Below are positions 10,108-30,097 of a stretch of 64,000 nucleotides of DNA, in pieces. The notes beneath the pieces are model-generated. The model saw only the letters and a program-made list of their open reading frames with translations. It searched no databases and was not told where the DNA came from. The translations under genes and the position numbers were made by a program. Origin of the DNA: Aneurinibacillus thermoaerophilus (GTDB lineage: Bacteria; Bacillota; Bacilli; Aneurinibacillales; Aneurinibacillaceae); the NCBI RefSeq assembly GCF_900099925.1, contig NZ_FNDE01000012.1, positions 1-64,000 on the forward strand, given 5' to 3'. Position 1 is the first letter of the stretch. Each line of letters begins with the position of its first letter.

Positions 10108-10878
10108 TTATGAATGGGGTTGTACATCTTCTTTTTCAATAACTGGATATTGTGTCGGGTCCCATTTACCCGACGGCGGGTCTGTATGAACAGAAGGAAG
10201 TTTGTCCAGAAGCGATGCATACTGCGGCGCGTAATATCCAGTTAGCTCTAAGTTAGCTTCAATCCCCTTTTCTTTTGGAATTTTGAAATCATCCTCTTGT
10301 TTCTGTTTAAACATAAGCTTATCTACACGCAAATACCTGGACATCTGCTGAATCTCAGTAACAAACCTGTAAACGTCTTTATATTCCCCTTTTATGCTCA
10401 GCTTAATTTTCATATTCCGAATCGAAGAACGGGGCAAATACTTCTCAAGCTCCGCACGCGTAACTTTTGGCGCTTGTTCTTTCGGTATATCAGCCGTCTT
10501 CTCTTCGACTTCTTCAGAGACAATTTCTTTTGCCAGATCCGCCGCGTTTATCTCTTTATTTTCCTCAAACGACGCATCCTCTATCGCTATCTTGCTAATA
10601 GACTGCAACTTTCCAAACTCTTTAACCAGCTGCTCATCGTAAGATTTTACCGGAAACAGTTCAGCGATCTGCCGCAATTTCTCCTGCGGTGGGCGCGTAT
10701 CTGCTTCTTTCTTTTGCTTTGTGGCCAGTTCAAGCTCTGCTTTCTTCTGTTGCAGCTGTATCTCCGCCTCCCGCTTTTGATTTAGTACCGGCATAACATA
10801 CAAATAATAGAACACAGCTAGCATCAAAAATAATAGAGCCAATCCAAGCAAAACATATTGACGCTGCTTTTCCTCCAT
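10108..10878 (-). CDS. pilO: PilO-like type IV pilus inner membrane platform protein
   Basis: The 256-residue protein has a short cytoplasmic tail, one membrane helix (residues ~9-28), a coiled coil (~30-75) and a C-terminal alpha/beta domain. That is the PilO/GspM architecture. It starts three bases after the PilN-like gene and follows PilM and PilN in the canonical order. In the known machine PilN and PilO pair and link PilM to the pilus. The family is weakly conserved, so the call rests on architecture and order. A residue 130-150 stretch rich in Glu/Lys is unusual for the family. Confidence 0.82.
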   Translation of the reverse strand: MEEKQRQYVLLGLALLFLMLAVFYYLYVMPVLNQKREAEIQLQQKKAELELATKQKKEADTRPPQEKLRQIAELFPVKSYDEQLVKEFGKLQSISKIAIEDASFEENKEINAADLAKEIVSEEVEEKTADIPKEQAPKVTRAELEKYLPRSSIRNMKIKLSIKGEYKDVYRFVTEIQQMSRYLRVDKLMFKQKQEDDFKIPKEKGIEANLELTGYYAPQYASLLDKLPSVHTDPPSGKWDPTQYPVIEKEDVQPHS

Positions 10879-10881
10879 TTT

Positions 10882-11544
10882 CTACTCCCTCTCTCCTGCC
10901 TGTTTAGTCGCTCCGCTTTGCTTGTTAGGCGAAGTGTTTTTGCGGAAATTTTTTTCATCTATCGTCTGAGTAATGAATTCAAATCGGGCCTGATAATAAG
11001 GGAGAATTTTGCCGCCCATAAGTCGCAGCGAGAGGGAAAGCGGGTTGCCTTTCTCATCTCTAGGTCCAATCCATTCCGTCTTAACTATTGTAATCCTTTT
11101 AACATCCGCCTTCATAACGCGCGGTAACTGTTGCACATTATATAAATACGCCGCAATATCCTCATACTGTTCAAAACGGCCTTCTACTTCGATTTTTCCG
11201 TCCATATTATAGGAAAGAGACATTACTTTTCCTTGTTCAGGCAATTGGGAAGCCAGTTCATCGAGCAGCAGAGTTGTCGGATAGAATACATGTTGCAGCT
11301 TATTAGACAAATCCAGATAATCGTCAACCGTCACAGCTTGTCCCTGCCGTTGTTGCATAGCGCTCAATTGCTTTTCAATCCTTTCTATCTCCGCCTGCAT
11401 GCTGGCCGTTTCTTTCTTGCCTGTCACATATAACATCCCTAAATATCCGGCTGCTAACAGCCAAAAAACACCGATTATGCTAAACACAACAACCATGCGA
11501 GAAACGCTCGTTTTTTTTCGGGGAAGAAGATTAATATCTACCAT
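10882..11544 (-). CDS. pilN: PilN-like type IV pilus assembly protein
   Basis: The N-terminus MVDINLLPRKK contains the INLLP motif through which PilN binds the groove of PilM. A membrane helix follows (residues ~18-38), then a coiled coil and a ferredoxin-like C-terminal domain. The 220-residue length fits. It is 5 bases after pilM and 3 before pilO, so translation is probably coupled. Confidence 0.88.
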   Translation of the reverse strand: MVDINLLPRKKTSVSRMVVVFSIIGVFWLLAAGYLGMLYVTGKKETASMQAEIERIEKQLSAMQQRQGQAVTVDDYLDLSNKLQHVFYPTTLLLDELASQLPEQGKVMSLSYNMDGKIEVEGRFEQYEDIAAYLYNVQQLPRVMKADVKRITIVKTEWIGPRDEKGNPLSLSLRLMGGKILPYYQARFEFITQTIDEKNFRKNTSPNKQSGATKQAGERE

Positions 11545-11549
11545 TTCCG

Positions 11550-12617
11550 CTACCCTCTCATCGCTAAACCAATCGGAGCCATATACGCTTGAACTTCATC
11601 CTGCCCGGTAAAAGGATGGAAAATATGCTCGGCAGGAAACCGCGTAACCTCCGCATGCTTAATATTTTCCTGTAAAATAGAAATTATTTTTTCGATATTT
11701 GGAAAATCACCGGTAAGATACATCTTGCTAATGCGTGTACCATCTTTTTTCATATTAAATTCATAAAACGTAAGCACACGTTCCAGTTCTCGTATTAAAT
11801 CCCTCGCAAATCCGTCAAACATCCCTCTATCTTCCATATATTGAATGAGAGAATAAGACTGCATGCCTCTTTCATCTAATGTAATGTTATAGTTTGTTAA
11901 GTCAATCGGGATGTTGCGAACAAACTCCGGAATGTCACCTTTGAAAAAGAAAACATTGACCGAGTGAAGCCCAAGCTGTACAATGATAAATTCTTCTTCC
12001 TCAGCCCGGTATTTAGCAAGGACACGATATAGCGCCAGCGGCTCGATTTCTGCCGCAACGAGTTCGATACGCAATACGGAAAACAGTTCAATATATTGAT
12101 CGACTAAATCTCCCGGTGCAGCAACAACCCAATACTGTTCCTGCTCTTCTTCCGCTTCACCGTTTGGCGCTTGTTCCAATTTGTAATAATCAAAGTACGG
12201 GCGCTGGAACGGAACATGAACCGTGGACTCCAGCTCCACTTCCAACAACATCCGCACTTCTTTTTCCGGAACGGGTGGCAAGAGAACTTTCCGGATAAAA
12301 ACAGAAGAGCTTGGAAGCGAAATGATTGCTTTTTTTCCTTTTAGTCCTTCTTCCTGTACCTTTGTGCTCAATTCACTTTCGATGCGCGCACAGTCAATCA
12401 GCTTGCCCCGTTCAATTAAACCGCTATCCAGTTCAAAAAAGCCGGCTTTTTTAATATGAATCGTCTGGGCATCATGGTGTACTTCCGCATACCGCAATCC
12501 TCTATCTTCCAGCACCATCCCGATATGGCCGGACTTTTTCCGCAATAAATAAGAAGGGACTTTGAAATCTTTGAGCGAAAATCTGGGGAATGTTATCCTC
12601 GGTAACGTTCGTTTCAC
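11550..12617 (-). CDS. pilM: PilM-like actin-fold pilus assembly ATPase
   Basis: Cytoplasmic actin-like protein of the type IV pilus platform. Family landmarks include AIISLPSSSVFIRKVLLPPVPEKE, EVELESTVHVPF and a late phosphate loop region near MYLTGDFPNIEKI. I choose the GTG start (VKRTLPRIT, 355 residues), which has GGAAGAGG upstream; the longer open frame would run into the prepilin peptidase gene. It binds the PilN tail and lies upstream of pilN and pilO. Confidence 0.88.
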   Translation of the reverse strand: MKRTLPRITFPRFSLKDFKVPSYLLRKKSGHIGMVLEDRGLRYAEVHHDAQTIHIKKAGFFELDSGLIERGKLIDCARIESELSTKVQEEGLKGKKAIISLPSSSVFIRKVLLPPVPEKEVRMLLEVELESTVHVPFQRPYFDYYKLEQAPNGEAEEEQEQYWVVAAPGDLVDQYIELFSVLRIELVAAEIEPLALYRVLAKYRAEEEEFIIVQLGLHSVNVFFFKGDIPEFVRNIPIDLTNYNITLDERGMQSYSLIQYMEDRGMFDGFARDLIRELERVLTFYEFNMKKDGTRISKMYLTGDFPNIEKIISILQENIKHAEVTRFPAEHIFHPFTGQDEVQAYMAPIGLAMRG

Positions 12618-12651
12618 AGCAATCCCTCTTCCGTCTTTTTGTATCCATGCA

Positions 12652-13410
12652 TTAGTAAAAAAAACTGAAATACCACGCAATCAGATCATAGCCTTTGAAC
12701 AAAGCAAGCAACGCGCCCAGCGCAATGAACGGCCCGAACGGCACTTTCGTCTTTCGCCCGGCTCCCCGAAATATCATCAGCAATACCCCATAGAACGCCC
12801 CGAAAAAGGTAGAAAGAAGAATCGTCAACAGAAGCAAAGGGTAGCCGAGGAAAAGGCCAACAACAGCAAACAACTTAATATCCCCGCCTCCGATGCCGTT
12901 TCCTGAAACAATCGCAATTATATAGAAAATGGTAAACCCGAGCACCATGCCGATCAAATGCGAAAGATACGTTTCGTCCGGATGAATAAAGAAACGAAGC
13001 ACAAGAAACACGAGAAAAAATGGCAGCAGTACTTTATCCGGAATGATCCGGTATGCCAGGTCTGAAACTGTAATGATCACCAGCAAAGAGATAAATAACA
13101 AATAGAGCCACGCTACTGGAGTAAAATCATATACAGCGTACACCGCAGCGAATAAAATTCCGGTTGCCAGCTCGATCAGCGGGTATACCGGAGAAATCGG
13201 GGCGCGGCAATACCTGCATTTTCCGCGCGCAATCAAATAAGAGAGAATCGGAATTAGATCGATCGGTTTGAGCTGTTTTTTACATGTCGGGCAATGTGAC
13301 GGCGGAGCAAGCAGCGATTGTTCTTGCGGCACCCGCAACCCGACGACATTGAAAAATGAACCGAAAAGAAGACCGAAAAGAAAAACGAGCAAAAGAATAG
13401 CGAAATCCAT
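12652..13410 (-). CDS. pilD: Prepilin peptidase / N-methyltransferase (PilD, ComC)
   Basis: Type IV prepilin leader peptidase (A24 family). The start is the ATG of MDFAILLL (252 residues) with AAAGGAG upstream. Residues ~10-60 hold the N-methyltransferase part with two cysteine pairs, CPTC and CRYC. The two catalytic aspartates are visible in VSDLAYRIIPD and GGGDIKLFAVVG. Eight or so membrane segments. This is the positional equivalent of comC in B. subtilis. It would process the major pilin and the PilV/PilW-type pseudopilins of this locus. Confidence 0.95.
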   Translation of the reverse strand: MDFAILLLVFLFGLLFGSFFNVVGLRVPQEQSLLAPPSHCPTCKKQLKPIDLIPILSYLIARGKCRYCRAPISPVYPLIELATGILFAAVYAVYDFTPVAWLYLLFISLLVIITVSDLAYRIIPDKVLLPFFLVFLVLRFFIHPDETYLSHLIGMVLGFTIFYIIAIVSGNGIGGGDIKLFAVVGLFLGYPLLLLTILLSTFFGAFYGVLLMIFRGAGRKTKVPFGPFIALGALLALFKGYDLIAWYFSFFY

Positions 13411-13443
13411 AGTGCTCCTTTCTTCATGATCCACGTATTTTGG

Positions 13444-13484
13444 AAAAAACAAGGCTCCGCGCTTTTGTGCGTGCGGAAGCCTTG
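13444..13484 (-). terminator. Terminator or attenuator after the major pilin gene
   Basis: Stem AAGGCTCCGC (13451-13460) with GCGGAAGCCTT (13473-13483), one bulge, followed on the minus strand by six Ts. It lies between the pilin gene and pilD inside the operon, so it probably lets pilin mRNA accumulate above that of the assembly genes. Confidence 0.8.
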
Positions 13485-13502: not shown

Positions 13503-13949
13503 CTATTTATTACCGTCCCTTAATATGTCTTGTCGAGTCATGTCTTTAATCTCTTTTTTATCTTTTCCTAATTTAGCTCCTCCTAACGTTATCATAAGAT
13601 CACCGTTATTATACTTAATTGTACCATTAGTATAAGGTTGGTTCGTTTCTGGATTTATAGGTATAGCATCAAGATATTTTTTACCATTATTTGCATTAGC
13701 TTGAGCTAAATCTTCCAACTCTACTTCTTTGTCGACTTGTTCAGGATTATCCAAATAATATAATTTTGCTGCATCAAGTACCATAATCGCATTCGCCTTA
13801 TGCGTCTTTAATTTCTGATTTTCAATAATGTTTCCAATCGCTGGTACGGCAATGGCCGCAATAATACCAAGAATAACAACAACTGCGAGCAATTCAATCA
13901 ATGTTAAACCGCGTTGCTCTTTCCACACTTTTTTCATTTGAGTCAGCAT
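13503..13949 (-). CDS. pilA: Major type IV pilin candidate (ComGC/PilA-like)
   Basis: 148 residues. The class III prepilin signal is clear: a short basic leader, then the cleavage site RG|LTLIELLAVVVILG with Glu at +5, and a hydrophobic helix. The C-terminal domain is small, about 100 residues, with no cysteines, so no disulfide D-region. An AGAGG site precedes the ATG. The gene is visibly more AT-rich than its neighbours. It lies directly downstream of pilC and is followed by a terminator, as expected for a highly expressed structural subunit. ComGC-like identity is also possible, but a retraction ATPase gene in the same operon favours a true pilus. Confidence 0.88.
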   Translation of the reverse strand: MLTQMKKVWKEQRGLTLIELLAVVVILGIIAAIAVPAIGNIIENQKLKTHKANAIMVLDAAKLYYLDNPEQVDKEVELEDLAQANANNGKKYLDAIPINPETNQPYTNGTIKYNNGDLMITLGGAKLGKDKKEIKDMTRQDILRDGNK

Positions 13950-13973: not shown

Positions 13974-15182
13974 TTACTTAATATGTGAATACATTTCAAA
14001 CATTGGAACCATAATCGATATGACAATGGTTCCGATGAGTACGGCAAGGACAACAATCATAATCGGTTCAATCAACGCCTTCACTTTGTCCACCGTATTT
14101 TCCACTTCGGCCTCGTAAAAGTCCGCGACCTTGTCAAGCATCGTCTCCAGCGCCCCCGTCTCTTCACCGATGGCGATCATCCGCGTAACGAGCGGCGGAA
14201 ACACCCACGACTCTTTCAGCGGTTCGGACAAAGGCCGTCCCTGCCGCAAACTCTCTTTCGCGTCTGCTAACGCCTTGCCTATGATTTGATTATGCATCAC
14301 CTCCTCCACGATTGTTAAAGCTTGCAAAATGGGCACCGAACTAGAAAAAAGCGTACTCAACGTACGGCTCATTCGGGCCAGCAACCCCTTCTGGTATAAT
14401 GAACCAAAAATAGGGACTTTCAACTTGAGATAACTTGTGACTTTCTGCCCATATTCCATTTTTACTAAAATAAGAGAAAAAATGGATAATAAAAGCATGG
14501 TAATAGTATAAATGTACCAATAATGCACTAAACTATTGCTTACTGCCAGCACGAACTTCGTAATCGCAGGCAACTCAGCATTCAAGCTTTGAAACATCCC
14601 AACAAAAGTAGGAACGACGCTTGTAAGCAAATAAACGGTAACCCCTATCGCCAGCACAAGCAGGACGAGCGGGTATGTCATCGCTGATTTTACTTTTTCC
14701 TTCGTATAATGAGACTTCTCATAAAACAGCGCCAAACGCTCCAGAATGACTTCCATATTTCCGGAGGCTTCACCGGCTTTTACCATGCTCAAAAACAATG
14801 GCTCAAAAATTTTTGAGTGTTTCGCCGCCGCCTCGGACAATTGAATCCCATTGCGAATATCCGATTTAATGTCTTCTAATGCTTTCCGAAATTGCTTATT
14901 TTCCGTTTGGGCAGCCAGCGTATGCAGCGAATCCACCAATCCGACGCCAGCGCGGATGAGGGTCGCAAATTGCCGCAAAAACACGACAAAATCACGATTT
15001 TTTACAGGACGGCCAAACGTAATCTCTTTATGCAAAATCGTTTTTTTCTCTTCTTTCACAGCCAGCACAATCAGGCCACGCTTTTTGAGTTCGGCAATGG
15101 CCGCACTTTGGGTCGCCGCAGTAATCGTCCCCTTTTTCTTTTTGCCACCACGTTCCCTTGCTTCATAAGCGAACGTTGTCAT
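13974..15182 (-). CDS. pilC: PilC, type IV pilus inner membrane platform protein
   Basis: GspF/PilC family, 402 residues. Two repeated T2SF domains (residues ~65-190 and ~270-395) each end in membrane helices. Typical motifs are FVVFLRQFATLIRAGVGLVD and MSRTLSTLFSSSVPILQAL. It would form the platform rotated by PilB and PilT. It abuts the pilT stop codon with no gap. Confidence 0.95.
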   Translation of the reverse strand: MTTFAYEARERGGKKKKGTITAATQSAAIAELKKRGLIVLAVKEEKKTILHKEITFGRPVKNRDFVVFLRQFATLIRAGVGLVDSLHTLAAQTENKQFRKALEDIKSDIRNGIQLSEAAAKHSKIFEPLFLSMVKAGEASGNMEVILERLALFYEKSHYTKEKVKSAMTYPLVLLVLAIGVTVYLLTSVVPTFVGMFQSLNAELPAITKFVLAVSNSLVHYWYIYTITMLLLSIFSLILVKMEYGQKVTSYLKLKVPIFGSLYQKGLLARMSRTLSTLFSSSVPILQALTIVEEVMHNQIIGKALADAKESLRQGRPLSEPLKESWVFPPLVTRMIAIGEETGALETMLDKVADFYEAEVENTVDKVKALIEPIMIVVLAVLIGTIVISIMVPMFEMYSHIK

Positions 15183-16226
15183 CTACTCCAGCACCTTTTC
15201 ATTCATATAGTTCTGTGCCGACTCTTTCATAATAATGCCCCTTGTGATCAAATCTTTAATAGACATCTCCAGCGTATGCATACCAAAATCGCGTCCCGTC
15301 TGCATCATGCTGCGAATCTGATGCACTTTTTCCATCCGAATTAAATTGCTGACTGCGGGTGTATTAATCAAAATTTCCGTTGCCGCGATACGTCCGCCGC
15401 CAATCTTGGCAAACAGCCTCTGTGAAATTACGCTAAGCAAAACGGAAGACAACTGAATGCGCATCTGCGTCTGCTGGTTGCCAGGAAACACGTCAATAAT
15501 GCGATCGATCGTCTGCGGTGCGTCCGGTGTATGCAGTGTAGCAAACACCAGGTGCCCGGTTTCAGCTGCGGTGATCGCCGTACTGATCGTTTCCAGATCG
15601 CGCATCTCGCCCACCAGAATAACATCCGGGTCTTGACGGAGCGAGGCGCGAAGACCTGTGGCAAAATCAGCAGTATCAAAGCCGATCTCCCGCTGATTAA
15701 TAATCGAGAGCTTATGCCGGTGTAAATATTCAATAGGGTCTTCCAATGTAATAATATGTTTGCGCATCGTGCGGTTGATATAATCGATCATCGCCGCCAG
15801 CGTCGTCGATTTCCCGCTGCCTGTCGGCCCGGTTACAATAATCAGCCCCTGCGGTTTATGACAAAGCTTTTCTAAAACTTTCGGCATGTTTAGCGATTCT
15901 AGCGTTGGAATTTGCGTCGGAATGACCCGGAAGACAAGACCGACGCTTTTCCGCTGATGGTACGCATTCACGCGAAACCGGGAAACTCCCGGTAAACCAT
16001 AAGAAAAGTCAGCTTCTCCCTTTTCCTTAAACCGGGTAAAAAGCTCCTCGCCCATTACCTCTCTAGCGATCGCTTCCGTAGCCGACGGCATTAATGGCTC
16101 CATATCAAGTCTGTACAATTCGCCATCCATGCGAAAGATCGGAGCGGATCCGGCAGTAATATGTAAATCGGAGGCTCTTTTTTCAAAGGCGTATCGCAAT
16201 AACTTCGCAATATCAATTGCGGACAT
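15183..16226 (-). CDS. pilT: PilT, pilus retraction ATPase
   Basis: Hexameric secretion-type ATPase powering pilus disassembly and twitching. I choose the ATG of MSAIDIAKLL (347 residues) with AAGGGG upstream. Visible motifs: Walker A GPTGSGKSTTLAAM, Asp box IITLEDPIEYLH, Walker B VILVGEMRDLETI, His box TGHLVFATLHT, and near the C-terminus AVSNLIRMEK, equivalent to the PilT AIRNLIRE signature. Its presence argues for a retractile pilus rather than a simple ComG competence pseudopilus. Confidence 0.95.
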   Translation of the reverse strand: MSAIDIAKLLRYAFEKRASDLHITAGSAPIFRMDGELYRLDMEPLMPSATEAIAREVMGEELFTRFKEKGEADFSYGLPGVSRFRVNAYHQRKSVGLVFRVIPTQIPTLESLNMPKVLEKLCHKPQGLIIVTGPTGSGKSTTLAAMIDYINRTMRKHIITLEDPIEYLHRHKLSIINQREIGFDTADFATGLRASLRQDPDVILVGEMRDLETISTAITAAETGHLVFATLHTPDAPQTIDRIIDVFPGNQQTQMRIQLSSVLLSVISQRLFAKIGGGRIAATEILINTPAVSNLIRMEKVHQIRSMMQTGRDFGMHTLEMSIKDLITRGIIMKESAQNYMNEKVLE

Positions 16227-16251
16227 CCCTATCACCCCTTATACCATCTTG

Positions 16252-17910
16252 CTATTCCCGCGTCGTAATGCGATACAGCTCTTCAAGCGTCGTTAATCCC
16301 TGCTTGACTTTCAGCAGCCCGTCATCAAACAGCAAAATCATGCCATGCTGCAACGCGTATTTTTTGTATTCTGACGCCGGCATTTGCCGCACGATCATCC
16401 GGCGCAACGTATCATCCATTCGGAAAACTTCATGAATGGCGAGCCGTCCCCGGTACCCGCTGGAATTACAGCTGCCGCAACCTGTTCCACGCCACAGCTG
16501 TTCGATGGTTAACCCCCGTCTAGCAAACACCTCTTTTTCATCTTCCCGCGGCGCATAGCTTTGTTTGCAATGCGGACACACCCGGCGTACAAGCCGCTGC
16601 GCAAGGATACCATTTATAGAAGAAGCAATAAGAAATGGAGGAATTCCCATATCAACCAAACGGGTAATGCTGCTAACCGCATCATTCGTGTGAAGCGTAC
16701 TGAGTACAAGATGCCCGGTCAACGCCGCCCTGATAGCAATTTCAGCTGTTTCCGTATCGCGAATCTCACCAACCATAATGATGTCAGGGTCTTGACGAAG
16801 AATCGACCGCAAAGCGGAGGCAAACGTCATACCGATACTCGTATTTACTTGTACCTGATTAATTCCTTCCAACTGGTACTCAACCGGATCTTCAACGGTA
16901 ATAATATTAACCGTATCGTTATTCAAGTGATTAAGCGCCGCATAAAGGGTGGATGATTTTCCGCTGCCCGTCGGTCCGGTTACAAGCAAGATCCCATTTG
17001 GGCGGCTGATCAGATCGCGAAAAACAGCCAAATTACGCTTCGTAAGTCCAAGCTTATCCAGTTCAAGCAACGCGGTTGTCGTATCCAACAAACGCATCAC
17101 AATTTTCTCCCCGTACACCGTCGGAAGCGTGGATACCCGTACATCAATCGCCTTAAGCCCTACGTGCATTTCGATTCTGCCATCCTGAGGCAAGCGGCGC
17201 TCCGCAATATTAAGGTTGGACATAATTTTAATTCGCGCAGTCAAAATGCCCATCATATGACGTGGGAGCATGCGCTCCGTCCGCATCACGCCATCAATCC
17301 GGTAGCGGATTTTGATCCCCTCCTCCTGAGGATCAATATGGATGTCGCTCGCCCGTAACTGTATCGCCTGTTCAAACATCTGAGTAACGAGTCTGACGAT
17401 CGGAGAATCTTCGGCCGATAATTCTTCTTCTTCTACCGTCATATGGCCGCTTATATCATCCATCAGCTCTTTTACCGAATCCTGCATGCCATATATTCGG
17501 CTGATGGCACGCTGTACCTCTTCTTTTGTGGCAATGACAGGAACAATCATGCAGCCGGTGCTGATCCGCATTTCGTCAATCGCAAAATAGTCGAGCGGAT
17601 CAACCATAGCCACGGTCAGTTGATCTCCGTCGCGTTTTAAAGGAACGACCTGATAACGCCTTGCGATTTCTTCAGATAATAGGCCTGATAAGGCCGGTTC
17701 TAACTTATAACGATAAAGACTCACATGGGGAATACCAAGTTGAAACTCAAGAATTTCGATAAGCTGCTGCTCATTTATGAATCCCTTTTTTAGAAGAACA
17801 TCGCCTAATTTCATCTTTGTATTTTTCTGTTCTTCTAGCGCCTCTTGCAACTGCGCTTCGGAAATGATCCGCATTTCAATCAAAATATCGCCCAGCCGCT
17901 TTTTCTCCAA
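16252..17910 (-). CDS. pilB: PilB, pilus extension ATPase
   Basis: GspE/PilB family, 552 residues. The N-terminal ~150 residues form an MshEN domain (LGDILIEMRIISEAQLQEAL and a second copy at ~LGDVLLKKGFINEQQL), a type that can bind cyclic di-GMP. Then come Walker A GPTGSGKSSTLYAALN, Asp box, Walker B IIMVGEIRDTETAE, His box, and a zinc-binding tetracysteine (CPHC and CGSC) in the C-terminal part. It is 25 bases upstream of pilT. Confidence 0.95.
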   Translation of the reverse strand: MEKKRLGDILIEMRIISEAQLQEALEEQKNTKMKLGDVLLKKGFINEQQLIEILEFQLGIPHVSLYRYKLEPALSGLLSEEIARRYQVVPLKRDGDQLTVAMVDPLDYFAIDEMRISTGCMIVPVIATKEEVQRAISRIYGMQDSVKELMDDISGHMTVEEEELSAEDSPIVRLVTQMFEQAIQLRASDIHIDPQEEGIKIRYRIDGVMRTERMLPRHMMGILTARIKIMSNLNIAERRLPQDGRIEMHVGLKAIDVRVSTLPTVYGEKIVMRLLDTTTALLELDKLGLTKRNLAVFRDLISRPNGILLVTGPTGSGKSSTLYAALNHLNNDTVNIITVEDPVEYQLEGINQVQVNTSIGMTFASALRSILRQDPDIIMVGEIRDTETAEIAIRAALTGHLVLSTLHTNDAVSSITRLVDMGIPPFLIASSINGILAQRLVRRVCPHCKQSYAPREDEKEVFARRGLTIEQLWRGTGCGSCNSSGYRGRLAIHEVFRMDDTLRRMIVRQMPASEYKKYALQHGMILLFDDGLLKVKQGLTTLEELYRITTRE

Positions 17911-21784: not shown

Positions 21785-22252
21785 ATGGAGCGATTTTCGG
21801 ATGAGAAAGGAATAACTTTGCTTGAAGTGCTCGCCGCGATTGTCATATTTTCTATTTGTCTATTGCTCTTTAACGTATATTTTGTCAATAGTTTTTCCAC
21901 CGTTAAAAGACAAGACTCGCAGCTCGTTGCCATGAATATCGCAAGACAGGTGGCAGAACAATGGAAGACGGGAAACGGCTCGCTTGAGCTCGGAACAGAC
22001 ACGCTTCGCTCTACATATAAAGACATCCATGCACACAAGAATGATTGGCTTGATGACAAAGGAATGCCTGTTGAACGCCAGCTATCTACCGTTACACTGA
22101 ATGGCATTACGTATCAGCCATCCATAACGATTGAACCTTTCGAGGAAAACGATCAGCTTTATATCATTAAAGTTACGATCAAAAAACAAAATGATGACAA
22201 GGTATTAGCGACGCTGCACACTGCTATTGCCAATCCGCAGAAAGGAGAATAA
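21785..22252 (+). CDS. PilV-like minor pseudopilin
   Basis: 155 residues with a class III signal: short charged leader MERFSDEKG, cleavage before ITLLEVLAAIVIFS, Glu at +5. The C-terminal domain has no cysteines. GGGGGA precedes the ATG. Similar small prepilins (PilV/GspI type) form the tip complex that primes pilus assembly. It is the first of three plus-strand genes, PilV-, PilW- and PilX-like, in the usual order. It needs the PilD encoded in the opposite operon. Confidence 0.85.
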   Translation: MERFSDEKGITLLEVLAAIVIFSICLLLFNVYFVNSFSTVKRQDSQLVAMNIARQVAEQWKTGNGSLELGTDTLRSTYKDIHAHKNDWLDDKGMPVERQLSTVTLNGITYQPSITIEPFEENDQLYIIKVTIKKQNDDKVLATLHTAIANPQKGE

Positions 22253-22255
22253 TCA

Positions 22256-23041
22256 ATGTCTCTGTTTCGCAAGTTTGTCCATCAGAAAATTTTCAATGAA
22301 CGTGGCGTAACTCTTGTAGAGCTGCTAGTGGCGGTTGGCATTTTTCTTGCTATCATTCTTCCACTGTCCTCCATATATATATCTGGTATTTCACTTTATG
22401 ACCGTACACGCATTGAAACGGATTTACAAAATGAAACAGATTTTATTCTTTCAAACATTTTAAATACAGTGCAGGATGCTTCTTATTTCGAATTACCTAA
22501 TGACTCGTTCGATCCAACAAGGCACAACACATTGGTCGCTATTTTTAAAAATTCATTGGCTGGTAAAAGCTTGCTTCCGCCTGAAGATGAAGGCAAGAGC
22601 CGGGATGGATTGATTACGTATGATTTGAAGCTTGCCTACGATACCGAAACAAAAAAGCAACAATCGATGCTAAAACGAACGTTCTATCAATTCCCACAAC
22701 TCTCAAGCGGCGATTCACAAAGTAACCCAAACATAACAAACGATTCAAATAACGTCTGGAAAACATTTAAACATGATGAAGGGTATGTTGTTGGCGGATT
22801 GTTTACAGTGACCGAACATAATGACAAGCTGACCATTTATCTTGTCGTCGCACCGAAAGGAAAGAGTGGAACGATTCGCAATGGGCAAAAAGCTGAATTT
22901 ACCGATCTGAATGATGTATTGCATGAATTAAACCGGTTACAAACGGAGCGGAAGTCACTCGCTTCAAGCGATAACGAACCTTTGCATTTCATCCGTTTCG
23001 TGAAAACCGAGTTTGCTGTCAACAATATGAAGAATGGGTGA
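22256..23041 (+). CDS. PilW-like minor pseudopilin
   Basis: 261 residues. Prepilin signal ERG|VTLVELLVAVGIFLA with Glu at +5. AAGGAG lies 8 bases before the ATG and the gene begins 3 bases after the previous stop. The soluble part is large for a pilin (~220 residues), as in PilW/GspJ-type tip components. No cysteines are seen. It overlaps no neighbour; the next start is 7 bases downstream. Confidence 0.85.
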   Translation: MSLFRKFVHQKIFNERGVTLVELLVAVGIFLAIILPLSSIYISGISLYDRTRIETDLQNETDFILSNILNTVQDASYFELPNDSFDPTRHNTLVAIFKNSLAGKSLLPPEDEGKSRDGLITYDLKLAYDTETKKQQSMLKRTFYQFPQLSSGDSQSNPNITNDSNNVWKTFKHDEGYVVGGLFTVTEHNDKLTIYLVVAPKGKSGTIRNGQKAEFTDLNDVLHELNRLQTERKSLASSDNEPLHFIRFVKTEFAVNNMKNG

Positions 23042-23048
23042 GGCTGTA

Positions 23049-25037
23049 ATGAAAAAAGTTAAGGAGGAACAAGGGGGCGCCCTGTTAACAGTTTTTTTTA
23101 TTTTAATTTGTTTCGCCATACTTGGTTTATCAATTATGAGCGTTACGCTTCAATCGAGCAAAGTTCGCACATTTACTGACAACGAAATCAAGGGGAAAAT
23201 GCTGGCGGAAATCGGACTGCTCTATTTTCGGGAAACGCTGGAAAAAGAGCTGGCTCAAGCGCAAAAGGAAGGCGCTTTTGAAAAAAACACAAGCCATCCT
23301 GTAAGACAGGCGCTCGAGAACCCGCGTGATGATGATAAGATAATAGAGATCATAAACAAAATAGCTAAGAAAAATGATTTGCTAGATTCTAACAAACCAG
23401 AAGAATCTATTAAAAAATATGTATATATCCCGCTACCACAGCAAGAAGAAGGCGGGTTTGCCATCGGATATACCGCTTATGCTGCTATACCGTACAAAGA
23501 TAAATTCGCCGAACCGAGTCAACCATACTCGCGAAAAATTACTGTCTCTATTATTGGCATTCCGCCGGGGAGCGCTGTTATGCAAAAGGATGGAACGGTT
23601 CAACCGAACGGCCAAAAGCTAGAAAACATAACAGCCACGTTTTATATTAATACCGTTCCCGGCCCATTCCATTATGCGATCAGCACGCCGGGAGAGGTAC
23701 GCTTTTTCGGAGGAAGCAACATTATCGGAAACGTACGGGCGAACAAAGTACTCACTAGCCAGCAATACCGATATAAAAAAGAAAACAATTGGTACAGCGG
23801 AGGGGACGAGACAAACAAAACGTACATCGAGGGAAAAGTATTCCTTACCGATCAGGACGATGCAGGTGTCTATGATGTAACCAATTACCCGAAAGAAACG
23901 GATTCACCTGAAAAAGAAAACATTCCACCGGTGGATAAAGCGGAACGAAAAACGACCAAAAACGAGCTAAAAGCCAAGCAAATCTTTATGCCACAGGGGG
24001 ACATTCCTTCTCATATCGTTGATTTGCAAGCTAAGCAGCCTTTTCTGCCCGGTTGGGAGCCGCCTGTCATCGAAATCGTAGAGGATGAGTCTTTGTCTCT
24101 ATTTCATAATGAGACAGTTGGTGAATATATAAACAGGAAACTAGCAGAACGAAAAGAGGGCGCACCGGAGCCTGATGAAGTGGTAGATGAAACATCATTG
24201 TCTTCCGAAGAAGAAGGGGACGGTTTACGCAAAATAGATGAAAAGAAGCTAAAGGAGCGGATGTTCATTGAATCAAGACAGCCTAAGCCCAATGATCCGG
24301 AAATCGAGGCTCCTTCCTTAACCGTCCGGCTTACGGGAAAAACCCTTTACGACTATAACGTTTCAGAATTATTCATTGTTCCGCAAAATCCTTCCGAACA
24401 TAAAGTCACAGTCGAAATGGGAAAAAAAGGGCAATTTTCAGATGAGCCAACAAAAGAAGGGGAACCTTTCACATATAAAGGCACGATTTACATTCAGGGA
24501 GATCTGGATATTGTTAATGATATTGATATGACAGGTACGATTTATGTTGACGGCAATGTCACAATTCGTGAAGCGACAAATCAGAAGAAGACAAATCAGG
24601 GAACACAAAATTTGGCCATTATCGCTTCCGGAAAAGTTATCCTGACAAACCGTTATGAGGGAAAACCGATAGCAACACCTGACATTGACCTGTCCGCCTT
24701 TTTATATTCGGATTTTTCCTTACCTGAAACCGATGCCACAGATAGCAACAAAGCAGAAAAAGGAATGGAAATTTACTCTGTGGAATCGGTAAACCGTATT
24801 AAAGGCGGAATCGGAACAAGCGGAGGCTATATTGAATTAAATACAAAACGGGAAGGAGAGGCAGAAGAGCTCGCTTCTCACTTGAGCATTCAATTTAACC
24901 GGGGAATTTTTGAACAGGAAACACCTGGATTGCCTGCGGGAGACACTTTCTTTATCGACATATATGACACACAATATAAACAAATTGCAGGAAATGAGCA
25001 CATCGACATAATGAGCAAAAACGGAGGCAGCCGATAA
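23049..25037 (+). CDS. PilX/GspK-like large pilus-tip component
   Basis: 662 residues from the ATG of MKKVKEEQGG (GGTGAGG upstream). The N-terminus, EEQGG|ALLTVFFILICFA, looks like a prepilin signal but lacks Glu at +5, as in GspK and many PilX proteins that cap the tip. The very long extracellular part is unusual: residues ~200-290 and ~460-560 have beta-solenoid-like stretches (GEVRFFGGSNIIGNVRANKV; TIYIQGDLDIVNDIDMTGT) separated by an acidic, flexible middle. It is the last gene of the pseudopilin operon and ends in a hairpin that it shares with the convergent VWA gene. Confidence 0.78.
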   Translation: MKKVKEEQGGALLTVFFILICFAILGLSIMSVTLQSSKVRTFTDNEIKGKMLAEIGLLYFRETLEKELAQAQKEGAFEKNTSHPVRQALENPRDDDKIIEIINKIAKKNDLLDSNKPEESIKKYVYIPLPQQEEGGFAIGYTAYAAIPYKDKFAEPSQPYSRKITVSIIGIPPGSAVMQKDGTVQPNGQKLENITATFYINTVPGPFHYAISTPGEVRFFGGSNIIGNVRANKVLTSQQYRYKKENNWYSGGDETNKTYIEGKVFLTDQDDAGVYDVTNYPKETDSPEKENIPPVDKAERKTTKNELKAKQIFMPQGDIPSHIVDLQAKQPFLPGWEPPVIEIVEDESLSLFHNETVGEYINRKLAERKEGAPEPDEVVDETSLSSEEEGDGLRKIDEKKLKERMFIESRQPKPNDPEIEAPSLTVRLTGKTLYDYNVSELFIVPQNPSEHKVTVEMGKKGQFSDEPTKEGEPFTYKGTIYIQGDLDIVNDIDMTGTIYVDGNVTIREATNQKKTNQGTQNLAIIASGKVILTNRYEGKPIATPDIDLSAFLYSDFSLPETDATDSNKAEKGMEIYSVESVNRIKGGIGTSGGYIELNTKREGEAEELASHLSIQFNRGIFEQETPGLPAGDTFFIDIYDTQYKQIAGNEHIDIMSKNGGSR

Positions 25038-25047
25038 CGGCTGCCTC
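25024..25047. terminator. Bidirectional terminator between PilX-like and VWA genes
   Basis: Perfect 10-bp stem GAGGCAGCCG / CGGCTGCCTC with a 4-base loop that contains part of the PilX-like stop codon; the VWA stop codon abuts the other side. On the minus strand five Ts follow, on the plus strand a weaker T-rich run. Confidence 0.8.
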
Positions 25048-27942
25048 TTATTGCAGAGTTTCTGTTCCTTTTATCGTTAATTTTCCTGCATCTTTACTCG
25101 CTGTAAATTGTTTCAATCCCTCTTCTTTTACCGCATCAATTTTATCGACATTAAAATCTTCGGTAGACTGTAATGTTATGATTAATTTTATTTTCACATC
25201 ATACGTTGCTGTTTTGCCGTTTGGTGCTTTCAAAAGCTTCGGCACAGCCCACCCCTTATCGCCTTTACTTAGTTCTTTAGGTGGTGTAAATTCCGGTCGC
25301 ACCGATTGGGTGTTTTTCGTCTTTGTATTTTCCAGGATAATGCTCATATCTACAATTCGCAAATGTACTAATTGGGGCAGTTTCTTTACCTTATACCCTG
25401 CTTTCACGCTGGCGGCGCGGTTGTCCTTCGGTGACTTTGCTATCTCCGCTAGCGGCTCTATATAATCTTCAATTTTATTTCCTTCTGGATCTAACACATT
25501 TCTTATTTTTCGTTCACCATGTCGTTTGTCTTCAGGTATTTTGCTACCATCCGGGTTGCTGTCATCCTGCACGGTTTTATCTAATGTAACCGCCCAAATG
25601 TCCAAATCGGTCTTGACCGGCTGACCGTCTTTTTTATCCAGAACAACGACCATCTGTTTCTTCTCAAAATATCCGTTTTTTGCAGTAAGCTTTTTCCACT
25701 TGCCTTTTTCCTTAACATACCATGCCGTTGTCGGAAGGATTGTATCTTTTTGTGGCTGAATCACCACATATGCGTTGTCTCCGATTACATCAGATTTTAC
25801 TTTAAATAAAGGCGTCAACCGTACATGAACGTTACAGCGCGCTTCTTTGCCACCGTCCTCCGTTCTGGCAACAATTTGCGCGGTTCCAACTCCTTTGGCT
25901 GTTACCTTTCCGTTTTCATCAACCTTAGCAACCGATTCATCGGTCGAACTCCATATCACCTTTTTATTCGTAGCATTTGACGGTTTTACTTCAGCAGTTA
26001 ATTGTTCTGTCCAATGCGTTTCCGGAACGGTGTTTGGGTCAGGATCGATATCCATATCCAATTTTGTCTTGTTAAGGACAATGCCGCTAACCGGAATCCG
26101 TTGCGGAACGACCGTAATCGTAAACGCCTCTAACGGTTTCGTTACCACATTGCCATTGAACGTTTTATATGACAGAGAAACATCTGTAAAAGAGTACGTT
26201 CCTTCTTTTAAAAATTTCAATTTCAGCGCTTTTTTCAATTCGTTCGCATCTATCGCAGGGCCATTCTCTGTATAGGGCACATCTGGGAAACGTATCGTAA
26301 CATAGCCGGATTCATCAACAACTGCGTCCGTATCCGGCGCAAGCTGTACATCAGAAGAAGGCAGCTTCACTTTCACCTTGACTTCCCCCAGGGAAATCTG
26401 CTTAATTTTATTTGTAATTTGGGCGAAAAGGGACTTTAAATTGTCCATCGTTCCTTCGTAAGCAGCGCCGCCAGTAAGAGAAGAAAGCCGTTCTAGATTC
26501 TTCATGCGCACATCTCTGCCAAAACCTATCGAATACAATTTAATCGAGTTGTCTGCCAGTTCACGTGCTGCTTCCTCTGCATCCCGCAGCGCTTTTTCAA
26601 TTTGCCATTCTTCTGTTCCCCCATCTTTTCCCTTTCCGTGTGTCGGAACACCATCAGTTAAAAAGATAATATACTTACGGTTCGTACTATTTGCAAACAT
26701 AGACTTGGCCATATGTAGGGCAGCCCAGTAATTCGTCCATCCTACAGCATGAACCCATTCCACTCTCTTTTTTACGGTGTCAAAATGAGTAGTTAAATCA
26801 CTTAGCTTTTCAGCCTCTGTACTAAACGAAACAAGCCCAATTCTATCATCTGCGCTTTTGCTACCTGAGTGATCGGCCAGCAAATCAATGGCGTGCTTGG
26901 TTGCTTCTTTCGCCTTCGCCATCTTGTTTTCATTTCTTACCATAGAACCGGAGCGGTCGAGCACAAATACAATATCGACAGGTTCACGAACCAAATCAGA
27001 GGCGGTCGGCTTACCGTACGGCGTAAGTTGAACGTTCACGGCTCCTACAGCCGTCCCATCCTGCGTCTCGATTGTCTGCTGCTTCGGATCTATGGTGCCA
27101 TTCAGTCCGATGTGTGATTGCTCCTCCGCCGGCCCTACCTCTACAGTAATCGCTGCAGATAGAGTCTTCGTTTGAGCCATCGGTTCAATGTTTTTGGCAC
27201 ATGTAACATTAGGTTTTGTTTTCTTATAATATACGGTTCCCCGCACACAAATTTTTGGAAGACCGCTTACTACAACATCATCCAAAAAATAAGCATCACC
27301 TTCGATTGTAAGCTCCGCATTCCCGCTAATCGTAAGATTTTTAAAGAAAAAAGCATCTGCTCCAACAGTAGTAGTAGAGTTATCACTAATTTTCACCGTT
27401 TCAAAATAAGAATCTTTCCCGATGTTCACCTTAGGGTTGCCGCTTATAGCGGTGTTTCCTCTAAAATACCCATTATCGTTTACAGTGAAATCAGCATTAC
27501 CGCTAATTTCTGTCGTTTCTTCCACATACAAGGAAGAATACTGATGCGAACGATTCCCGGATTCTTTTAAATGTTTCTCTTTCTTTACATTCGATGGAGG
27601 CTCAGGAAATGAAAGATCCCCTCTACTTCCCTTTTCATAGTATACAGTAATCGTCGCCTTCCCTTCTTGCAGCGCAGTCACTTCAACAGAATTCCCCCTG
27701 TCATGACTTAACTGCAAAACGTTCGGATCGGAAACCGACCAGCGCACGGCGTCGGCCTTGCTCGGGTCAACATTGACGGTAAACGTTTCCTTGTGCCCTT
27801 TCTGCATTTTCGTTTTATACTGCATGAACGCTACATCGTTATCCGCAATATTTTCTGCACGTACGGAAACATTCCCAATGCTTGTAAAAAAAAGCATAAA
27901 CATCATACAAAACAACAGTCCCATAGATAATGCTTTTCTCAT
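25048..27942 (-). CDS. Secreted VWA protein with beta-solenoid repeats and BIG2 domain; pilus-adhesin candidate
   Basis: 964 residues from the ATG of MRKALSMG (GGGGAGG upstream). Signal peptide to about residue 29. Residues ~35-105 are Ig-like. Residues 146-240 hold five ~20-residue repeats of the pattern ISGNxxxxVxxDxYF, predicted beta-solenoid. The VWA domain spans ~322-515 with a complete MIDAS: DRSGSM at 329-334, T403 and D430. A BIG2 Ig-like domain follows at ~617-707, then a long beta-rich C-terminus. No LPXTG motif or C-terminal membrane anchor is present. Metal-dependent adhesion via VWA is known for pilus tip proteins of other bacteria. Position next to the pseudopilin genes makes a pilus tip or secreted adhesin role plausible but unproven. 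Confidence 0.8.
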   Translation of the reverse strand: MRKALSMGLLFCMMFMLFFTSIGNVSVRAENIADNDVAFMQYKTKMQKGHKETFTVNVDPSKADAVRWSVSDPNVLQLSHDRGNSVEVTALQEGKATITVYYEKGSRGDLSFPEPPSNVKKEKHLKESGNRSHQYSSLYVEETTEISGNADFTVNDNGYFRGNTAISGNPKVNIGKDSYFETVKISDNSTTTVGADAFFFKNLTISGNAELTIEGDAYFLDDVVVSGLPKICVRGTVYYKKTKPNVTCAKNIEPMAQTKTLSAAITVEVGPAEEQSHIGLNGTIDPKQQTIETQDGTAVGAVNVQLTPYGKPTASDLVREPVDIVFVLDRSGSMVRNENKMAKAKEATKHAIDLLADHSGSKSADDRIGLVSFSTEAEKLSDLTTHFDTVKKRVEWVHAVGWTNYWAALHMAKSMFANSTNRKYIIFLTDGVPTHGKGKDGGTEEWQIEKALRDAEEAARELADNSIKLYSIGFGRDVRMKNLERLSSLTGGAAYEGTMDNLKSLFAQITNKIKQISLGEVKVKVKLPSSDVQLAPDTDAVVDESGYVTIRFPDVPYTENGPAIDANELKKALKLKFLKEGTYSFTDVSLSYKTFNGNVVTKPLEAFTITVVPQRIPVSGIVLNKTKLDMDIDPDPNTVPETHWTEQLTAEVKPSNATNKKVIWSSTDESVAKVDENGKVTAKGVGTAQIVARTEDGGKEARCNVHVRLTPLFKVKSDVIGDNAYVVIQPQKDTILPTTAWYVKEKGKWKKLTAKNGYFEKKQMVVVLDKKDGQPVKTDLDIWAVTLDKTVQDDSNPDGSKIPEDKRHGERKIRNVLDPEGNKIEDYIEPLAEIAKSPKDNRAASVKAGYKVKKLPQLVHLRIVDMSIILENTKTKNTQSVRPEFTPPKELSKGDKGWAVPKLLKAPNGKTATYDVKIKLIITLQSTEDFNVDKIDAVKEEGLKQFTASKDAGKLTIKGTETLQ

Positions 27943-27989: not shown

Positions 27990-28017
27990 ATTTTACCACA
28001 ATACATATCACTGTCAA
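27990..28017 (-). promoter_or_regulatory. Promoter of the VWA gene
   Basis: Minus-strand TTGACA (28017-28012), 16 bases, TAAAAT (27995-27990). The -10 and the following ~30 bases are nearly the same as at the chemoreceptor gene upstream (30146-30173), although the spacer differs. Confidence 0.8.
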
Positions 28018-28144: not shown

Positions 28145-30097
28145 TCACATTTTAAACCTATCTACATTATCTCTTAATTCTTCAGCGATCGTTGACAACG
28201 CAGCGGCCGATGAATAAATCTCTTCCATGGAAGCAAGCTGTTCTTCCATTGCGCTCGAAATGCTGCTCATTTTCTCCATGTTTTGTTCCTGAGAATACTT
28301 GGCATTTTTCGTGATTTGCATAACTTCTTCCGCTCCGGCTGAAATTTGCTGCACCGCCGCTGATACTTCCTGAACTTGTGTGGTTACTTCCGTAATGGAC
28401 TGCAAAATCGAACGAAATGCTTCGTCTGCCTCGCGGACATTTTTCATTCCCTTATGTACGACATCTGTACTATCCGTCATCGATTGAACCGCATATTTCA
28501 TTTCCTGCTGAATGGTAGCAATGAGCGCTTTGATTTTTTCTGCCGAATTTGATGACTGCTCAGCCAAACTCCGCACTTCATCGGCGACGACCGCAAAACC
28601 TTTTCCTTGCTCTCCAGCTCTTGCCGCCTCAATGGCCGCATTTAGCGACAACAAGTTTGTCTGGTTAGCGATTTCCGTAATCACTTCAACAATTTTGCCA
28701 ATTTGGTTAGAACGTTCACTAAGGCGTTCGATAACTTTGCTCAATTCTCCTACTTTATCGGTAATCATGCTCATATTTTCATTGATCGTTTGCAATGCCT
28801 GTTTTCCTTTTTCCGTCCGCTCCAACGCTTCAGAAGAGGCAAGAGAAACCGTTTGGGAATTTCCGGCGATTTGTTGAATCCCCCTCGACATTTCATCAAC
28901 AGATAAAGAAGCTTTCTCGATGCTCTTCGTCTGCTGTATCGTTTCTTCCGTTATATCTTGCGTCATCGCCGCCACATGTTCGGATGCCTGACTTGATTGC
29001 TCTGCGCTTGCAGCTAATTGTTCCGAAGAAGAAGCCAGCAGATGAGATTTCTCGCTAATCGTTTGCAAAACAGAATGCAAAGAATCGATCATATGATTAA
29101 AACTGGTTCCCACTACGCTTAGCTCATCCCGGCCCTTGCTTTGAACTTTGGACGTTAAGTCTCCCTCTTTGACTTTTTCGGCGACATTCCTCAAATCTTG
29201 CAAAGGCTGAGTAATGGAACGGATGACAATATACGCAAGCAATAAACTAAACACGAAAAACACAAGCACTACTACAAGTGTGGTGTAAAAAATAGGTGCC
29301 ACTTCCTGCTCGGCTTCCGACTCGGGCATTACACTTGCAATTTTCCAGCCAGTCAAAGGATTGACGGAAAATACGGCGTTCATCTGTTCCTCGCCTTCCA
29401 TGTATGTAAGTTCCCCTGAATTTTGTTTCATGATCTCTTCATATTGTACACCCGAGACTTTAGACCCATACTTTTCATGCGGATGAACAATCACCTCACC
29501 TTGCTCATCCAGAATAAAGGCATAGCCTTCTTTCCCGATTCTTACCTTTTTCACTTCATCTGTTAAATGGTTTAAATTTAAATCAATGCCTACGACTCCC
29601 TTGCCGTCCTTCGTTGTTTTAGCAATTGTTACCACTACAGCATCTACGGAAACGGCTTGATAAGGATTTGTAATAATAACTTCCCCTTTATTTTCCATCG
29701 CTTGCTTATACCAGGGTCGCTTACGCGGATCATACCCATCCGGCATTTTTACATTAGGCGCATTTACATAAGAGCCATTCTCGTTTCCTACAAATGCATT
29801 GATAAGCTCGGAATGAGCAGATTGAAAATCGTTCAATCGTTGTCTTAAACCTTCTGTTCCAACTTCAGCAGAGTTGATGTTTTGTGCCAGAAACTCAATG
29901 TTTTTTACCTGTGGATATATGACTCCGTTAACAAACGTATTCAATGTTTTATTGCTCTCTTGGCCACTATATAAAGTTTGCTCCATAACCTCTTTCTTCG
30001 CTACGTTATACGATACAAATCCTAAACAACTAGTAGAAATAAATACGATTAGTAAAAAAGAAATGATCAACCTCACTTTTACAGAGACATTTCTCAT
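28145..30097 (-). CDS. Methyl-accepting chemotaxis protein with dCache sensor
   Basis: 650 residues: membrane helix ~9-31, extracellular double-Cache domain ~35-275 (motif [30 protein letters not shown]), second membrane helix ~280-300, HAMP ~302-355, then the long helical signalling domain with the hairpin tip around [19 protein letters not shown]. Cache domains of this type commonly bind amino acids or organic acids; the ligand cannot be read from sequence. It is an orphan receptor: no che genes lie here. Its promoter matches that of the adjacent VWA gene. Confidence 0.93.

Follow-up and report, generated by a model that had tools for sequence, protein, structure and literature searches.

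The window, by which we mean the whole stretch of 64,000 nucleotides that was analysed, carries a full type IV pilus cluster together with a gene for a secreted VWA protein. We consider this protein to be a modular effector, itself no pilin, at the tip of the Bacillales type IV pilus, with a role like that of PilY1 and an unrelated carrier end (probability roughly 0.7). The gene belongs to a family that is paired with a pilX-like gene and is defined by a conserved C-terminal end under interchangeable heads. In the following, ‘slot protein’ denotes the product of the gene that occupies the slot beside the pilX-like gene, that is, the VWA protein and its counterparts.

The VWA gene, its pilus cluster and the fold of its product

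The pilus genes of the window and the elements of the VWA gene are:
10108–11544, minus strand: PilN and PilO
11550–12680, minus strand: PilM
12652–13452, minus strand: prepilin peptidase-like protein (PilD), assigned from a weak family match
13503–13949, minus strand: major pilin-like prepilin
13974–15182, minus strand: PilC platform protein
15183–16235, minus strand: PilT retraction ATPase
16252–17910, minus strand: PilB extension ATPase with an MshEN domain (c-di-GMP-binding type)
21785–22252, plus strand: pilV-like minor pilin (N_methyl)
22256–23041, plus strand: pilW-like minor pilin (N_methyl)
23034–25037, plus strand: pilX-like gene for a ComZ-like minor pilin, modelled with a beta-solenoid inserted in the pilin fold; likely docking partner
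25024–25047, unstranded: hairpin terminator
25048–27942, minus strand: gene of the VWA slot protein (964 residues, secreted, without wall anchor)
27990–28017, minus strand: promoter-like site of the VWA gene, TTGACA-16-TAAAAT with an extended −10 TG

The VWA gene starts with an ATG at position 27942, upstream of which lies a ribosome-binding site (agagaggggagg), and its promoter-like site was called from consensus matching, with 11 of 12 positions in agreement. The sequence-only reading described the gene as convergent with the PilX-like gene, and this was borne out: the two stop codons are 10 bp apart and both genes have the hairpin terminator in common. A dCache methyl-accepting chemotaxis gene (28145–30097, minus strand) separates the VWA gene from murC; at this position the close relatives L009–L012 showed no match to it.

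Within the VWA protein we distinguish the following parts, all encoded on the minus strand:
27856–27942: signal peptide, residues 1–29, cleavage placed by eye after VRA; predicted helix 2–22
27631–27831: N-terminal Ig/BIG2-like domain, residues 38–104; strands, pLDDT 77–92
27223–27528: five-repeat beta-solenoid-like insertion, residues 139–240; strands, pLDDT about 72–85
26044–27111: beta-sandwich bearing the VWA domain, residues ~278–633 (AlphaFold2 model; VIA-align matches 276–614)
26395–26985: VWA domain, residues 320–516
26944–26958: MIDAS D329/S331/S333, the DxSxS motif of the VWA domain
26734–26736: MIDAS T403 of the VWA domain
26653–26655: MIDAS D430 of the VWA domain
25828–26031: BIG2 domain, residues 638–705 (Pfam Big_2, 6.6e-21 for the protein)
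25051–25824: conserved C-terminal domain, residues 707–964, ending in a VKAKxNLx-type strand; candidate pilus-docking module

Most of what had been read from the letters was recovered in this analysis. The signal peptide is visible in the sequence, and Pfam recovered the two Ig-like domains, one as the Big_2 match and the other as a weak T2SS-T3SS_pil_N/Ig-like match at residues 62–106 (5.1e-5). The VWA match itself covers residues 323–495 (2.4e-19) with an intact MIDAS, all of D329-x-S331-x-S333, T403 and D430 being present; these residues are mostly kept among relatives (D in 51/53, S in 53/53, S in 49/53, T in 48/53 and D in 62/68), and a few relatives have lost some of them. The five repeats of about 20 residues and of the ISGN..YF type, which start at residues 146, 166, 185, 205 and 225, gave a self-alignment score of 80 as compared to 24.4 ± 4.3 (maximum 43) in 300 shuffles, and the autocorrelation of the region peaks at lags 20 and 39. 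The parts missed at that stage were the C-terminal domain and the flanking beta-sandwich that carries the VWA domain. Residues 1–106 (27625–27942) also match NCBIfam NF053514, a BLB8/JUQZ-1 family protein model for a small-protein family, with an E-value of 1.8e-8, a match that falls short of the cut-off of this model.

The absence of a wall anchor was likewise upheld, there being neither an LPXTG motif near the C-terminus (an LPTTA string is internal) nor a TM-like segment after residue 60; among 76 slot proteins, a single one has an LPXTG-like string within its last 60 residues. We therefore rejected a sortase-anchored VWA tip pilin. A modular type IV pilin of the S. sanguinis PilB type, which has an N-terminal class III signal and a pilin helix within the one protein, was rejected as well, since Pfam gives no N_methyl match in the VWA protein, whereas the neighbours PilV and PilW have one.

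The AlphaFold2 model of the VWA protein has a mean pLDDT of 80.4 and a pTM of 0.49, with the last three residues under 50. Its top Foldseek matches in the PDB are the pilus tip adhesins SpaC, Mfa5, PitA, RrgA and GBS104; these matches have low TM-scores (0.15–0.20 over the query) and owe most to the VWA and Ig-like parts. With VIA-align the protein was matched to the bacterial VWA protein 4fx5 (Z 26.6, 292 residues, rmsd 5.0), to the VWA domain of Mfa5 (Z 25.3, 194 residues, rmsd 2.4) and to S. sanguinis PilB (7b7p; Z 22.7, 192 residues, rmsd 2.2), these matches being dominated by residues 316–598, i.e. mostly the VWA domain and the sandwich. A search against viral structures returned generic VWA and BIG2 matches. 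The model of the PilX-like protein (mean pLDDT 73.0, pTM 0.78) shows a beta-solenoid interrupting a pilin fold; it resembles ComZ (Foldseek E 1.4e-4; VIA Z 14.9, 347 residues, rmsd 13.3) and ice-binding solenoids (VIA Z 15.3, 195 residues, rmsd 3.1).

Pairing of the slot gene with pilX

To what extent the VWA protein is tied to pili was addressed in a homologue scan of 84,980 species genomes. The homologues do not lie mostly away from pilus genes: all 46 Bacillales homologues adjoin folC/murC inside the pilus locus, and pilus genes were found near none of the 33 VWA matches outside the Bacillales. Beyond the homologue, a pilX-like match was present on the opposite strand in 45 of the 46 Bacillales loci, the contig of the last one ending before that point. 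A profile of the C-terminal domain was found in 15 of 300 Bacilli genomes, as a single copy in each and always on the contig that carries pilX (74–601 bp away in 14 genomes and 4 kb away in one); no case away from pilX was seen among these 300 genomes. A search of plasmids returned only partial VWA or Ig matches, none of which spanned 80% of the VWA protein query.

Conserved gene order does not account for this pairing. In eight genomes the gene beyond the slot is pilB instead of folC, and three Brevibacillus-like genomes have neither of the two there; in all of these the slot protein is still beside pilX. Conversely, several genomes with folC/valS and a divergent pilX-like gene lack the slot protein and have a GGDEF diguanylate cyclase there. 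Synteny alone is thus insufficient as an explanation, because the pairing of slot protein and pilX outlives the folC/valS flanks and because the slot protein can be missing where folC/valS are kept.

These data also bear on the possibility that the VWA protein is a cell-wall or free secreted adhesin, the gene of which merely neighbours pilus genes and the C-terminal end of which binds the wall or the S-layer. Surface exposure of this kind would fit the signal peptide and the many Ig-like domains as well as the separate promoter-like site of the gene, and the interaction with the pilus is putative. However, the C-terminal domain is never apart from pilX in the 300 genomes, the link to pilX is kept where that to folC/valS is lost, and no known wall-binding domain or anchor was found in the protein. 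We regard this alternative as unlikely, though less so than the two that are considered below.

Some further features of the slot were observed. The slot-less loci with a GGDEF-type protein in its place are L165–L167 and L169–L171, where the assignment is confirmed by Pfam in L166 and L167 and made from a C-terminal motif in the others; together with the MshEN domain on PilB of the window, this replacement suggests that a link between the pilus tip and c-di-GMP signalling may merit testing. Three genomes, L070, L082 and L103, have a broken or shortened slot gene, through either sequencing error or real decay. In seven loci (L141, L143, L144, L161, L162, L174 and L175) an extra small ORF of 228–282 residues separates the slot gene from pilX and shares the strand of the slot gene; these loci are of the DUF5057 type and come from two families.

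Interchangeable heads over a conserved C-terminal end

Among 76 pairs of slot protein and PilX, the heads comprise VWA in 46, DUF5057 in 21 and neither in 9. Single proteins carry further modules, namely DUF5057 combined with an ice-binding-like adhesive domain, and cadherin-like domains. The Paenibacillus-like DUF5057 slot proteins with the ice-binding-like adhesive domain (pAdhesive_15) are those of L148 and L058. In NCBIfam, whole slot proteins stayed below the curated cut-off of every model, the one model to pass it being that of a domain, choice_anch_A, in L148; the pilX-like proteins passed none.

On a tree of PilX, the head label changed at least 10 times, at least four of these changes falling within the clade of the window genome, which shares one C-terminal domain, and the tail label changed 5 times; these counts are approximate because the tree is a quick build with some long branches. 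Outside this clade, the C-terminal domain gives way to a short tail in which Gly, Asn, Asp or Ser are often abundant. In 60 of the 76 slot proteins the chain stops precisely with W (35) or Y (25), and R or K stands before the terminal W in 34 of the 35. Such ends occur in 9 of 539 other ORFs of the same loci and in none of the 76 PilX proteins. The 76 slot proteins are not independent: clustering of their last 250 residues at 50% identity reduces them to 36 groups; counted in this way, W or Y ends are found in 22 of the 36. Since the W/Y tails and the strand at the end of the VWA protein are different sequences, a single docking mechanism for both types of end is an assumption.

The sequence-only reading had laid emphasis on the order Ig–solenoid–VWA–BIG2. 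This order is present in the window, yet it does not define the family: in an alignment of the seven closest VWA-type proteins the solenoid was shared with G005 only. The solenoid is a lineage-specific local insertion carried by two genomes, and we rejected it as the defining feature. A copying from the solenoid of PilX found no support in the sequence either, the local score being 33 versus 35.7 after shuffling. Of the earlier proposal of a pilus-linked tip adhesin, the linkage thus stands and the stress on the solenoid falls away, while the placement at the tip is presumed by comparison with PilY1.

A proposed PilY1-like role with a different carrier

PilY1 is a non-pilin tip effector of diderm pili in which a C-terminal propeller serves as carrier under swappable heads (PMC8179133), which include VWA (PMC11046646, PMC13190605, PMC8179133). 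Its C-terminal eight residues were modelled as a strand added to PilX (PMC11046646), and this strand addition was extended to other species (PMC13190605). The VWA protein is like PilY1/PilC of diderm type IVa pili in being a Sec-secreted non-pilin encoded beside pilV-pilW-pilX-like genes, and slot proteins likewise have variable N-terminal heads, VWA among them, and a conserved C-terminal end. They differ in that the slot protein lacks the PF05567 beta-propeller and has an unrelated C-terminal domain or W/Y tail; in addition, pilY1 lies in the minor-pilin operon, whereas the VWA gene is convergent, on the opposite strand and with a separate promoter-like site. PF05567 was detected neither in the VWA protein (hmmscan, E up to 0.1) nor in any of 300 Bacilli genomes, while an identical search was positive in 1 of 10 other genomes. 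Homology to PilY1 was rejected on these grounds, and the slot protein is best read as analogous, not homologous, to PilY1.

Other VWA-bearing pilus proteins are less close. S. sanguinis PilB (7b7p) also has a VWA domain with a MIDAS that is presented by a monoderm type IV pilus, but there the domain is fused to a pilin, whereas the slot protein is a separate non-pilin. SpaC, RrgA, GBS104 and PitA (sortase-type pili) and Mfa5 (type V) likewise combine VWA with Ig-like beta-sandwich domains; the slot protein, in contrast, lacks a C-terminal LPXTG and the filament is a type IV pilus. The pilX-like partner is predicted to share with ComZ of Thermus thermophilus a pilin fold with an inserted beta-solenoid. 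The likeness concerns the fold and not the role of ComZ as DNA receptor. A steric argument has been made for ComZ as a tip pilin (PMC6561018).

As the slot protein shares the logic of PilY1 with a different carrier, we infer that its C-terminal end docks on the ComZ-like PilX with the head outward. The VWA protein would be exported by Sec, and its C-terminal domain and terminal strand would hold it on the PilV/PilW/PilX-like tip complex, the ComZ-like PilX being the most likely docking partner. The MIDAS-bearing VWA head, with its lineage-specific solenoid, would then face outward for adhesion and perhaps for surface sensing, and would be presented during the PilB-driven extension and the PilT-driven retraction of the fibre.

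Two further explanations were weighed against this tip effector. In Myxococcus, PilY1 and minor pilins act as primers of pilus assembly (PMC7541494, PMC13190605), and the VWA protein could similarly be an assembly or priming factor, a checkpoint of the tip complex with a structural or sensory, not adhesive, head. Heads without VWA, the few without MIDAS residues and the MshEN domain of PilB would agree with this, but the diverse heads (VWA, ice-binding-like adhesive, cadherin-like) resemble adhesion or recognition modules, and the slot protein is missing from some genomes that have the pilX-like gene, so that we find a mere priming role improbable. It is more improbable by far that the protein is a cargo or substrate secreted by the pilus machinery and no part of the tip; its size, its secretion and the adjacent genes of a retractable type IV filament might suggest this, but the protein has its own Sec-type signal peptide and no enzymatic head occurs among the members scanned.

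A 2011 paper described a Geobacillus pil operon (PMC3244431); von Willebrand, adhesin and PilY1 were not found on searching its text. According to a 2023 review, PilC/PilY1 fills the place of a non-pilin effector at the tip of diderm pili, and the monoderm model S. sanguinis relies on adhesive modular pilins (PMC10191384). In the open-access literature searched, we found no paper on the Bacillales slot family, which may be described elsewhere, and none that names DUF5057.

A broader proposal, for which the chances fall somewhat short of even, is that Bacillales type IV pili have a widespread and hitherto undescribed class of plug-in tip effectors, in which interchangeable adhesive heads are set on a ComZ-like tip pilin. 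The conserved C-terminal end that joins them would be a dedicated domain in some and in others a flexible tail, with the aromatic last residue (W or Y) as docking tag and hence a new pilus-anchoring signal. With a secreted partner that is paired with pilX across the Bacillales, the carrier-plus-effector design would reach into the Gram-positives, where the carrier is another one. The family would also suggest a function for DUF5057 proteins, and the C-terminal tag could be deleted or grafted to probe the loading of the pilus tip.
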